From Rhodopseudomonas palustris (lineage in GTDB: Bacteria > Pseudomonadota > Alphaproteobacteria > Rhizobiales > Xanthobacteraceae): a stretch of DNA of 64,000 nucleotides. Location of the stretch: positions 38,889 through 102,888 of the forward strand of contig JACRJB010000015.1 of the NCBI GenBank assembly GCA_016215605.1, in the 5' to 3' direction. Below, piece by piece: positions 28,129-32,852 of this stretch; position 1 is the stretch's first letter, and each line of letters opens with the position of its first letter. Position numbers and translations under genes: made by a program. The notes under the pieces were generated by a model. It worked only from the letters and a program-made list of their open reading frames with translations. It searched no databases and had not been told where the DNA came from.

Positions 28129-29349
28129 ATGATGAACGACACGGTCTTGATTGTGGGAGCCGGACACGCCGGATTTCAGGTCGCCGTCTCGCTGCGCCAG
28201 GCCAAGTACAACGGTCGCATCGCGCTGATCAACGACGAGAAGCATCTGCCGTATCAGCGGCCGCCGCTGTCGAAGGCGTATCTCAAGAGCGGCGGCGATC
28301 CGAACTCGCTGATGTTCCGGCCGGAGAAGTTCTTCCAGGACCAGACCATCGAGCTGATCTCCGGTCGCGCGGTGTCGATCGACCGCGCCGCGCGCAAGCT
28401 GCTGCTGGCGTCCGGCGAGGCGATCGACTACGGCCATCTGGTGCTCGCCACCGGCGCTCGCAACCGTCAGCTCGACGTGCCGAACGCCACGCTGTCCGAC
28501 GTGCTGTATCTGCGCACGCTCGACGAAAGCGAAGTGGTGCGGCAGCGGATGCCGGAGAAGAAGCACGTCGTGGTGATCGGCGCCGGCTTCATCGGACTGG
28601 AATTCGCCGCCACCGCGCGGGCCAAGGGCCTCGAGGTCGACGTCGTCGAACTGGCGCCGCGGGTGATGGCGCGCGCGGTGACGCCGGAAATCTCCAGCTA
28701 CTTCCACGACCGCCACACCGCCTCGGGCATCCGCCTCCACTATGGCGTCCGCGCCACCGAGATCGAAGGCGAGGGCGGCCGGGTCACCGGCGTGGCGCTC
28801 AGCGACGGCCGCACCTTGCCGTGCGACCTGATCGTGGTCGGCGTCGGCGTGATCCCGAATGTCGAACTGGCGGCGGCGGCGGGTCTGCCGACGGCGTCCG
28901 GCATCATCGTCGACGAGCAGCTGCTCACCGAGGATCCGAACATCTCCGCGATCGGCGACTCCGCGCTGTTCAACAGCGTGCGTTTCGGCGAGGTGATGCG
29001 GGTGGAGTCGGTGCAGAACGCCACCGATCAGGCGCGCTGCGTCGCGGCGCGGCTGACCGGCTCGCCCGCGACTTACGACGGCTATCCGTGGTTCTGGTCC
29101 GACCAGGGCGACGACAAGCTGCAGATCGCCGGCCTCACCGCCGGCTTCGATCAGGTCGTGGTCCGCGGCAGCGTCGCCGAGCGCTCGTTCTCGGCGTTCT
29201 GCTACAAGGACGGCAAACTGATCGGCATCGAATCCGTCAACCGCGCCGCCGACCACGTGTTCGGCCGCAAGATCCTGCCGCTCGGCAAGTCGATCACGCC
29301 GGAACAGGCGGTGGACACGAGCTTCGACCTGAAGAAGGCGATGGCGTAG
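28129..29349 (+). CDS. puR: Palustrisredoxin/putidaredoxin-type NADH:ferredoxin reductase
   Basis: MNDTVLIVGAGHAGFQVAVSLRQAKYNGRIALINDEKHLPYQRPPLSKAYLKSGGDPNSLMFRPEKFFQDQ..., recognised as very similar to R. palustris PuR. Confidence 0.9.
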   Translation: MMNDTVLIVGAGHAGFQVAVSLRQAKYNGRIALINDEKHLPYQRPPLSKAYLKSGGDPNSLMFRPEKFFQDQTIELISGRAVSIDRAARKLLLASGEAIDYGHLVLATGARNRQLDVPNATLSDVLYLRTLDESEVVRQRMPEKKHVVVIGAGFIGLEFAATARAKGLEVDVVELAPRVMARAVTPEISSYFHDRHTASGIRLHYGVRATEIEGEGGRVTGVALSDGRTLPCDLIVVGVGVIPNVELAAAAGLPTASGIIVDEQLLTEDPNISAIGDSALFNSVRFGEVMRVESVQNATDQARCVAARLTGSPATYDGYPWFWSDQGDDKLQIAGLTAGFDQVVVRGSVAERSFSAFCYKDGKLIGIESVNRAADHVFGRKILPLGKSITPEQAVDTSFDLKKAMA

Positions 29350-29367: not shown

Positions 29368-30357
29368 CTACGCGGGCTCCGGCGCGTGCTCGTTGAGCTG
29401 CGCGTGCTGGTCGAGGGGCGCGAGAAAACTGGCGAAGACGTAGCCGTCGAGCACGCCGTCGCCTTCGAGGTCGACGCGCGCCCAGGCCGGATCCGTCCCG
29501 CCAGCCGTGACGACGGTGAGTTCGGTCCCCAACGCCAGCGTCTTTTCCGAACCGAAATCGATGCCGGGTCCGCCGCGTAGCTTGAGCCCGCCGCGGGCGA
29601 TCACCGCGTAGCGGCCAGGTGCGAGCGCCACGGCGCTGGCGCCCGCTTCACCGGCGCCAGCCGCGCCGACACCGGCCACGTCGACACCCCGCGACGTCGT
29701 CAGATAGTCGAAGATCCGTTCGCCGTAGTATTTCTCGCCATCGAAAAAGCCCTGCTTCAATTTGCGCGCCGGATTGTAGCCGCCGGTGTTATAGGCGATC
29801 GCGACCGCGGCGAATTCGAGGTCGCTCAGGCTGGTGCGGGTCTCGAAGCCTAGCTTCTTCAGGCCGCGGCGCAATTCTCCTAGGCATTGAGCCAGCGAGT
29901 CGCCGAACTTTTCGTAGCGTCGGTCGAGGAAGTAGTCGGGGTCCTCGCGGAAGAACTGCAGGTCGCGCTGGAAGACGCCGTAGCCGTGACAGAACTTGTT
30001 GGGATTGCTGACGGCGCCGTGATAGCCGGGGATATAGGCCGCCATGTCTTCCAGCGCGGCGCGGGCGATGTCGAACATCCTGCGGCCGTTCGTTTCGGCG
30101 ATGAGTGAATCCTTCGATCGCGGAAACGCTTGTCGTCCCTTGCCGGGGCCCTGATAGTCGATCGTGTCGCCGACGCAGAGCGCCAGCACGCGGTCCAGTG
30201 GCAGGGATTTCTTGCGGAGCACCGACCAGATGTAGCCGGTCTCCTGGCAGGCGATCGCGATGATCATGTCGGCATCGAACGGCGTCCCCGGCAACGCCGC
30301 GTCGATCTGGCTCCGAAACTGCTGCTTGAACCATCGAATGTCATCGGTCGTTGGCAT
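29368..30357 (-). CDS. Lysozyme/lytic-transglycosylase-like protein with C-terminal SH3-like domain, no signal peptide
   Basis: IACQETGYIWSVL...FCHGYGVFQRDLQFF...AIAYNTGGYNPARKLKQG (E...GYGxFQ...AYNxGGY pattern), then GRYAVIARGGLKLRGGPGIDFGSEKTLALGTELTV...WARVDLEGDGVLDGYVFASFLAPL. Confidence 0.65.
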   Translation of the reverse strand: MPTTDDIRWFKQQFRSQIDAALPGTPFDADMIIAIACQETGYIWSVLRKKSLPLDRVLALCVGDTIDYQGPGKGRQAFPRSKDSLIAETNGRRMFDIARAALEDMAAYIPGYHGAVSNPNKFCHGYGVFQRDLQFFREDPDYFLDRRYEKFGDSLAQCLGELRRGLKKLGFETRTSLSDLEFAAVAIAYNTGGYNPARKLKQGFFDGEKYYGERIFDYLTTSRGVDVAGVGAAGAGEAGASAVALAPGRYAVIARGGLKLRGGPGIDFGSEKTLALGTELTVVTAGGTDPAWARVDLEGDGVLDGYVFASFLAPLDQHAQLNEHAPEPA

Positions 30358-30414
30358 CGCGAGCTCCGTTCACATGTGTTGCTCTTGAATCCGTTATCCG
30401 CAGCCGGCCACCGG

Positions 30415-31155
30415 CTAGGCGACGTCGCCGGGTTGATGACTCGAAGCGAGGGCCGCGAGAAATGGAGCGAAGACGTAACCGTCGAGCACGCCGTCGCCCT
30501 CGACGTCGACGCAGGCCCAATTCCCGCCGGGGCCTTCGAATTGCGTCACGGTCAGCTCGGTACCGAGCGCGAGGGTCTTCTCGGAGCCGAAATCAGGACC
30601 GGGGCCGCCTCGCAGCTTCAGGCCGCTGCGGGCCACGACGGCGTAGCGGCCCGGTGCCGCCGGCTCAGCGGGGACGGTCTCGGCGAGCGCTGCCGGCGTT
30701 CGCCATCCGGCCTCCGCGGCGTCTCGCAGCCATTGCGGCGCATTGATCGATTTGCCGCCGGCGCCCCATGTCAGCGTCTGATGATCGTTGATCGACGTGC
30801 CGAAGCCGACGTGGATGGTGCGCGCGCCCATGTAATCGACGCCGGCGCCGATCCCGGTTGCACCTGCCGCGGCCGCGGCGGTGATGAAAGCAAGGACTGT
30901 CGCGGGCGCTGCGTGGTCGGTGAAAGCGAGCGCCGTCCCTTGGACCACGAGCTGGAGATCCGCGGCACGCCCGCGATCGTGGCGTGTCGAACCGGTGCGG
31001 CGCGTGCCCTCGCCGAGGGTATCCTGGCCGCCGGAGGTGATGACGACGGTGTCGATCCCCGCGGATTGCGCGGCGATGGACAGCACTTTCTGCAGTTCGC
31101 TCGAGATCGGCTTGTTTCGGATGGCGCCCGGTGGAGGACCTGTAAAATTAGCCAT
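30415..31155 (-). CDS. M15-like peptidoglycan peptidase domain with C-terminal SH3-like domain, no signal peptide
   Basis: ITSGGQDTLGEGTRRTGSTRHDRGRAADLQL...MGARTIHVGFG (H..G.AAD and late H), then GRYAVVARSGLKLRGGPGPDFGSEKTLALGTELTV...WACVDVEGDGVLDGYVFAPFLAAL. Confidence 0.6.
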   Translation of the reverse strand: MANFTGPPPGAIRNKPISSELQKVLSIAAQSAGIDTVVITSGGQDTLGEGTRRTGSTRHDRGRAADLQLVVQGTALAFTDHAAPATVLAFITAAAAAGATGIGAGVDYMGARTIHVGFGTSINDHQTLTWGAGGKSINAPQWLRDAAEAGWRTPAALAETVPAEPAAPGRYAVVARSGLKLRGGPGPDFGSEKTLALGTELTVTQFEGPGGNWACVDVEGDGVLDGYVFAPFLAALASSHQPGDVA

Positions 31156-31442: not shown

Positions 31443-32336
31443 CTACGCCGTCGCCGCGAATTCCCGCTGCACCGCTGCGATATCGGCGAGGGTCGGCAGG
31501 CCGGCCTCGTTGCCGAGCTTCTGGATCTTGTAGGTCGAGGCGGCGCGGGCGAATTCGAAGTGCTGCTGCCAGCTCTTCTCCGGACTGTTGAGATACGAGA
31601 ACACATAGGCGCCGTGAAACACGTCGCCGGCGCCGTTGGTGTCGAGCACGCGTTCGCGCGGGATCGACAGCGCCGGCAGCGTGCGCACCGTGCGGGTCTC
31701 GTCGTACCAGACCAGGCCGCGCTCGCCCTGGGTCACGCCGCCGACCCGGCAGCCGCGCGATTTCAGATAGTCGAGCATCCGGTCCGGCGTCAGGTCCATC
31801 TGCTCGCACAGCCGCTCGGCGACGATCGCGACGTCGATGAATTCCAGCAGCTCGTGGGTGTTGGTGCGCAGGCCGCCGCCGTCGAGCGAGGTCAGGATGC
31901 CGCTCTCGCGGCACAGCCTGGCGTAGTGGATCGCGGCGTCGGGCTGATGGCCGTCGACGTGCAATGCGCGGCAGTTGCCGAGGTTGAGCAGCGGGAAGGG
32001 GTGGATGTGCTCGTCGTCGCGGCAGCGCACGATCGCGCGCTTGCCGTCCTTCGGCATGATGAAGGACAGCGACGACGAGGCGACCTTGCGCGGATGGATC
32101 TCGATCCCGTACTTGGCGCTCATGTCCTGAAACATCCGCCCCAGCCAGTCATTGGCGATGGTGGCGATCAGGTCGGGGACGACGCCGAGCTTGGCGCAGC
32201 AGAACGCCGCGGTCACGGCGTTGCCGCCGAACGACACCGCGTAGTCGGACGCCACGTGCTTCTCGTCGCCGGTCGGCATGTGGTCGGTGATGAACGTGAC
32301 GTCGATATAGGTCTGTCCGATGAAGAGTGCGTGCAT
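31443..32336 (-). CDS. PfkB-family carbohydrate kinase
   Basis: MHALFIGQTYIDVTFITDHMPTGDEKHVASDYAVSFGGNAVTAAFCCAKLG...LDTNGAGDVFHGAYVFSYLN. Confidence 0.9.
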   Translation of the reverse strand: MHALFIGQTYIDVTFITDHMPTGDEKHVASDYAVSFGGNAVTAAFCCAKLGVVPDLIATIANDWLGRMFQDMSAKYGIEIHPRKVASSSLSFIMPKDGKRAIVRCRDDEHIHPFPLLNLGNCRALHVDGHQPDAAIHYARLCRESGILTSLDGGGLRTNTHELLEFIDVAIVAERLCEQMDLTPDRMLDYLKSRGCRVGGVTQGERGLVWYDETRTVRTLPALSIPRERVLDTNGAGDVFHGAYVFSYLNSPEKSWQQHFEFARAASTYKIQKLGNEAGLPTLADIAAVQREFAATA

Positions 32337-32852
32337 GAGCGTCCCGTACTGCGAGCCTGACCCGGCCTGGATACAATAGCACTGCTTATCGCAGTGCATT
32401 CGCTAAAATAATTCGCAACATCCGAGGGGTTGAGAGAGGCCTTTCGCTGAAAATCCGGTCACAACGACCGGCGCTCTGCCTCGTCCGGGTCAGGGCGCCG
32501 CAGGGAGGACGAGCGTGTCGGTCTGTTCCAGTTCGGGGGGAGGCGACGTGGCCGCGCAGCCGATCGGTGCGATCGCGGACCATTGGGAGGTCGCGTGGAC
32601 CGACCAGCTGTCTGCCGTCGCGGCTGCGCGCAGTCGATTCAATGCGATGTGTCTGTCAGTTCCGCTGCGGCGACGGTCCAGGGAAGGAACTGCGGGAACC
32701 GACGACACCCGGCGGAAATACCAGGTTTTCGACTTCGTCTTTGACCATATGATCCAGCCGACGCGTTGTGATCGAATCGCACTCCGCACCGCCGCGATGG
32801 CCATCGGGGTCGAGAAAGTGCGTTCGGCCAAGAACACGCGAGGATTGTTTCC

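Follow-up and report, generated by a model that had tools for sequence, protein, structure and literature searches.

The M15 endolysin of the T5 type, an L-alanyl-D-glutamate peptidase, is a small lysin without a signal peptide. A combination of two wall hydrolases has been described for the Rhodobacter capsulatus phage Jorvik. According to the accessible part of that report, its Slt and M15 enzymes are both active in zymograms and digest R. capsulatus walls, the M15 enzyme is proposed as the endolysin, the two genes lie in separate operons with a putative holin present, and Marinomonas phage YY is included in the comparison (PMC10589892). In R. capsulatus, the RcGTA lysis genes rcc00555/rcc00556, which encode a lysozyme and a holin, lie outside the RcGTA structural cluster (PMC3423380).

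Here we characterize two adjacent genes, A and B, in a window of 64,000 nucleotides (the whole stretch of DNA that was analysed) from Rhodopseudomonas palustris. Like the Jorvik enzymes, they appear to combine one lytic-transglycosylase-type enzyme (A) with one M15-type enzyme (B), and the M15 protein of phage YY matches the predicted fold of B (E 3e-4). The comparison with Jorvik is by description and not by sequence; the Jorvik genes differ in being phage genes, in separate operons and with a putative holin, and no SH3 module is described for them in the accessible part of the report. Within that scope, the Jorvik Slt and M15 enzymes may be taken by analogy as a precedent for the enzyme combination of A and B. 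For lysis genes located at a distance from the structural genes, RcGTA would likewise be a precedent: rcc00555/rcc00556 resemble our pair in placing an endolysin-type gene away from a structural cluster on an alphaproteobacterial chromosome, but they are a lysozyme and a holin, whereas A and B are two hydrolases whose distribution does not follow the GTA. Among the papers searched for orphan or domesticated endolysin pairs, none describes this locus.

Layout of the locus

The genes form a two-gene run on the minus strand, with B upstream and A following after 57 bp. Both open reading frames lie where the initial annotation had placed this tandem pair. The features are as follows.

29368-30357, minus strand: gene A, 329 aa, lysozyme/GH23-like catalytic domain and C-terminal SH3 module, without signal peptide
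Gene A, approximately residues 1-225: catalytic domain with E39, G125/G127, Q130 and Y189-N190
29410-29625, minus strand: SH3_3 module of A, residues 245-316, DLEGDGVLDG loop
30415-31155, minus strand: gene B, 246 aa, M15-like catalytic domain and C-terminal SH3 module, without signal peptide
Gene B, approximately residues 10-155: catalytic domain with T57-x-H59-x2-G62-x-A64-x-D66 and H115
30445-30660, minus strand: SH3_3 module of B, residues 166-237, DVEGDGVLDG loop
31156-31442, minus strand: gap 5' of B, 287 bp, G+C 0.55 against 0.67 in the surroundings, presumed promoter region
28129-29349, plus strand: left flank, outside the system, ferredoxin-reductase-like FAD oxidoreductase, convergent with A
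31443-32399, minus strand: right flank, outside the system, PfkB-family kinase

The stop codons of A and of the convergent ferredoxin-reductase-like gene are separated by 18 bp. In-frame stops lie 4 codons (A) and 12 codons (B) before the start codons, which leaves no room for an earlier start that would add a signal peptide, and neither N-terminus contains a strongly hydrophobic stretch. The N-termini, suspected from the start to be signal-less, are so in both proteins.

Upstream of B-A, no LexA-type boxes (GTTC-N7-GTTC, GAAC-N7-GAAC) and no CtrA-like box (TTAA-N7-TTAA) were found, and control of the pair by SOS or CtrA was rejected on this ground. The neighbourhood is metabolic: no holin, spanin, phage, immunity or secretion gene adjoins A-B, no convincing holin-like small open reading frame was found near the pair, and none suited to an immunity role lies between or beside A and B.

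Catalytic domains

For A and B as such, Pfam identifies the SH3 part only, and PHROGs and NCBIfam give no match at all.

In A, the residues E39, G125, G127, Q130, Y189 and N190 are invariant in all 12 A-type sequences, at identities down to 24%. Motifs of the kind and order E...GxGxxQ...YN are those expected for GH23/goose-type lysozyme folds. The predicted model of A is poor (pLDDT 59) and the fold search made with it was uninformative, while the hhalign comparison with SLT, built on four SLT domains of the same genome, aligned the catalytic Glu with a probability of only 9%. Because of these two results we call A lysozyme-like from its motifs only, and with moderate confidence regard it as a lysozyme/GH23-like enzyme. 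The earlier proposal that A is lysozyme- or lytic-transglycosylase-like agrees with these motifs.

In B, the residues H59, G62, D66 and H115 are invariant across 13 to 16 B-type sequences, and the pattern [ST]-x-H-x2-G-x-A-x-D followed by a distal His is the M15 metal-ligand pattern. The predicted model is good (pLDDT 83) and matches viral 'Peptidase M15A, C-terminal' proteins of BFVD at E 3e-5 and 8e-5. Matches to PDB entries are weaker: the only sequence match of the B profile is an L-alanyl-D-glutamate endopeptidase (E 1.1), and the fold search, which was dominated by eukaryotic SH3 domains, returned the T5 endolysin at E 0.12. One phage relative of B has a Peptidase_M15_3 match in exactly the B-type domain, weak and below the cut-off (E 0.098); the Pfam M15 cut-off is reached by neither B nor its relatives, and the hhalign comparison of B with M15_4 relatives gave no support.

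Many M15 enzymes carry a conserved acid three residues before the last His. Among B relatives this position is not conserved and is mostly non-acidic, and for this reason we name B M15-like and not a member of M15. B thus shares with the T5-type endolysin the H-x6-D metal-ligand spacing as well as the weak profile and fold matches, and differs from it in falling below the Pfam M15 thresholds, in lacking the conserved acid and in its added SH3 module. Taken with the fold matches to phage M15 proteins, the metal motif makes the prediction of an M15-like enzyme well supported. The M15-peptidase-like assignment of the initial annotation agrees with this, and the putative active-site residues are conserved among relatives of both proteins.

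A shared SH3 module with an invariant loop

The C-termini of A and B are identical at 56 of 75 residues (75%, E 2e-31), as the nearly identical terminal domains reported earlier had indicated. Both match SH3_3 (PF08239), the bacterial wall-binding domain, with A, scored as a domain, above the cut-off (28.8 bits) and B just below it (26.7 bits). The variant is marked by a D-x3-D-x3-D-G loop, present in 22/22 of its examples. Four further SH3_3 domains are encoded in the source genome and all lack the loop; A and B carry the only close copies of the module there. This loop may correspond to a calcium-binding loop, which it resembles. Motifs and SH3_3 matches together agree with the proposal of one glycan-cutting-like and one peptide-cutting-like enzyme with the same targeting module.

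The variant occurs on five hydrolase architectures: lysozyme-like, lysozyme-DUF2272, M15-like, Amidase_2 and M15_4-SH3-GH19, the last carrying it mid-protein and not at the end. No SH3 module was found on the viral relatives in the viral loci examined, so simple capture of phage genes does not explain A and B. As to a possible gene conversion between their modules, strong recent homogenisation is not shown: identity between A and B within one genome (76%) is lower than that between species for A (83%) or B (84%).

Relatives in phages and viral contigs

Searching viral contigs and INPHARED phages with single sequences gave no match. Alignment-based queries of the viral contigs recovered two relatives of A and at least 208 of B. 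One A relative (L042) is a stand-alone protein of 226 aa encoded behind phage structural genes, on a contig that also encodes head closure, primase and DNA polymerase. A stand-alone B-type gene (L043) likewise follows structural-type genes on a contig with phage replication genes, and four further contigs (L051, L056, L093, L107) have a head-closure homologue in common with L042.

A breakdown by protein size, which covers 80 B loci out of the at least 208 viral relatives, gave 14 complete proteins of at most 300 aa, 49 longer ones, 16 cut by contig ends and one without the motif used. The small relatives L043 and L048 match endolysin PHROGs, L048 also PG_binding_1; among the longer proteins, several have matches to 'baseplate hub subunit and tail lysozyme'. 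The endolysin link drawn in the initial annotation is supported by these phage relatives. In several viral hubs of the T4-like type (gp5-type, phrog_13211), the B-type domain is the C-terminal or an internal lytic part; A and B differ from these in being separate, soluble and free of OB-fold or spike parts. The B domain would give a lytic-domain assignment for many viral baseplate-hub and small lysin proteins in which our Pfam and PHROGs searches mostly left this part unassigned.

Two viral contigs (L112 and L087) encode baseplate-hub proteins that join a B-type peptidase domain with SLT or Phage_lysozyme2 in one chain.

Distribution and evolution of the pair

Across 250 genomes of the family, four have a complete or almost complete A and three have B; in each of these three the two genes are adjacent. 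The order B then A is found in the window, in R. pseudopalustris, in a Xanthobacteraceae MAG (L004) and on a megaplasmid of Rhizobium sp. WYJ-E13 (L029). Methylobacterium, Sphingobium and others have B-type genes for which no A partner was recognised.

Synteny of the flanks links the window to R. pseudopalustris (L003), whereas 14 other congeners are without the pair. This common gene order, together with the same-genus placement of G430, whose hits equal those of L003, agrees with Rhodopseudomonas as the source genus. In most of the pair-less congeners the reductase gene is a close neighbour of PfkB, and in L125 only 9 bp separate the two stops; in L127 and L131 the reductase falls outside the flank examined. 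The PfkB proteins of the pair-less L124 and L125 are 96-97% identical to that of the window, and that of R. pseudopalustris is 92% identical. Because the pair-less strains are the closer ones here, the A-B cassette has probably undergone more than one loss or gain.

Relative to R. pseudopalustris, A and B have a synonymous divergence (dS) of 0.62-0.68, roughly double the 0.27-0.37 of the flanks, and omega is 0.14 for A and 0.23 for B, indicating purifying selection. The doubled dS together with these omega values argues for a chromosomal accessory cassette that is exchanged but functional.

In L124, the approximately 1 kb between the PfkB and reductase genes holds another open reading frame, methyltransferase-like as judged by eye only. 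Its position at the site of the pair may mark an insertion hotspot.

Delivery, release and alternative roles

The initial annotation had listed T6SS cargo, tailocin release and GTA release among the possible roles, and none of the three was supported by the carrier genomes. The T6SS sheath gene VipB/TssC is absent from all four carriers tested (G000, G430, G298, G369) and no immunity gene stands beside the pair, so T6SS cargo was rejected. No contractile sheath gene was found in G000, G430 and G369, on which ground a contractile tailocin or eCIS was likewise rejected; G298 has sheath genes, on contigs other than that of the pair. Secreted or injected antibacterial effectors, with the SH3 variant as a sorting or translocation tag and binding module for an unrecognised delivery route, would account for the same variant on other signal-less hydrolases of five architectures, for the three SH3-variant hydrolases within 6.5 kb near a SIR2_2-pYEATS gene in Rhizobium sp. 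WYJ-E13, and for the run of several wall-hydrolase-like genes on the Nostoc plasmid pNPM5. We consider this role unlikely in view of the T6SS and sheath results, the ordinary metabolic neighbourhood, in which no immunity-like gene separates or adjoins the two genes, and the mid-protein position of the module in M15_4-GH19 proteins. A broader proposal, and a quite unlikely one, is that the variant is a common tag of dispersed signal-less wall hydrolases of alphaproteobacteria and a cyanobacterium, serving one shared delivery or activation route such as calcium-triggered wall binding upon membrane breach, with A-B as one two-gene unit. It is distinctly improbable that A and B are GTA lysis enzymes placed apart from the structural cluster like rcc00555/rcc00556: the source genome does encode the marker GTA_TIM, and RcGTA is a known case of lysis genes outside the cluster (PMC3423380), but GTA_TIM, present in G000 and G430, occurs also in the pair-less congeners G397 and G497 and is missing both from G298, a carrier of the pair, and from G369, a carrier of A. 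The distribution of the pair thus does not follow the marker, no CtrA-like box lies upstream and there is no holin partner.

A self-destruct function in abortive infection, in which cytoplasmic hydrolases render lysis irreversible once an infecting phage has prematurely permeabilised the membrane, would fit the patchy distribution, the insertion at a variable site and the synonymous divergence of about twice that of the flanks, and the SIR2_2-pYEATS neighbour of one plasmid copy (L029) would be compatible with a role in conflict. Yet this is the only copy with a defence-like neighbour, and neither in the window nor in R. pseudopalustris is there a sensor or defence gene next to A-B, so that we give this explanation a small chance. 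Housekeeping enzymes that recycle wall fragments in the cytoplasm would need no signal peptide and might be expected among metabolic genes, as A and B are found; the few carriers, the wall-binding-type SH3 module and the phage lysins among the relatives make this very improbable.

Proposed mechanism

The explanation we favour, and hold to be somewhat better than an even bet, is that A and B are a domesticated, chromosomal, phage-free pair of endolysin-like peptidoglycan hydrolases that act upon membrane breach. A would cut the glycan strand in the manner of a lysozyme or lytic transglycosylase, and B the stem peptide as an M15-type zinc peptidase. Since both would be made in the cytoplasm without an export signal, they would reach the wall only once the inner membrane is breached, be it through a phage holin, another lysis pathway or cell death. 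The common SH3 module would then hold both on the wall and so direct the cutting of glycan and of peptide bonds to one and the same spot. We infer the enzyme activities, the wall binding and the release by membrane breach. With no holin, spanin or phage gene beside the pair, the endolysin route is incomplete at the locus, and Sec-independent export of A and B may also occur.

If this is right, the bacterium keeps a complementary pair of glycan- and peptide-cutting lysins with the same wall anchor and without phage, holin or secretion genes, and the pair could serve as a simple means of finding out whether lysins encoded on the chromosome are a help or a hindrance to phages, GTAs or competitors. 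The short loop signature of the SH3 module can also serve as a search handle for related signal-less hydrolases.

Relatives on plasmids

On the megaplasmid of Rhizobium sp. WYJ-E13, the pair is followed by the SIR2_2-pYEATS gene, and an Amidase_2-SH3 gene is located past A at a distance of about 4 kb. On Nostoc pNPM5, an M15_4 gene precedes the A-type gene in the run of wall-hydrolase-like genes. The run (L040:20589-27302, minus strand) comprises PG_binding/M74-like, GH25-like, GHL10, M15_4 and A-type lysozyme-SH3 genes, and this small plasmid also carries NB-ARC and NACHT genes.

Near wall-hydrolase genes of rhizobial plasmids, two loci (L031:1265-5023 and L035:4331-6646) encode proteins that combine a trypsin-like peptidase with a DNA/RNA non-specific endonuclease. 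The Hedgehog amino-terminal signalling domain has an M15-like fold; plasmid p2 of Pararhizobium gei (L036:12806-14044, minus strand) encodes a signal-less protein in which this domain (E 3e-50) is joined to a DUF5675-like part, with a B-type gene nearby. On plasmid pB of Ensifer adhaerens (L038:7944-12316), a B-type domain is fused to Glucosaminidase and PG_binding in a protein with hydrophobic C-terminal stretches, and a patatin-like gene follows. On a 17.9-kb plasmid of Roseivivax marinus (L039:6442-8262), a protein of 606 aa has an N-terminal B-type domain; this small element, possibly phage-like, also carries toprim and PC4-like genes.
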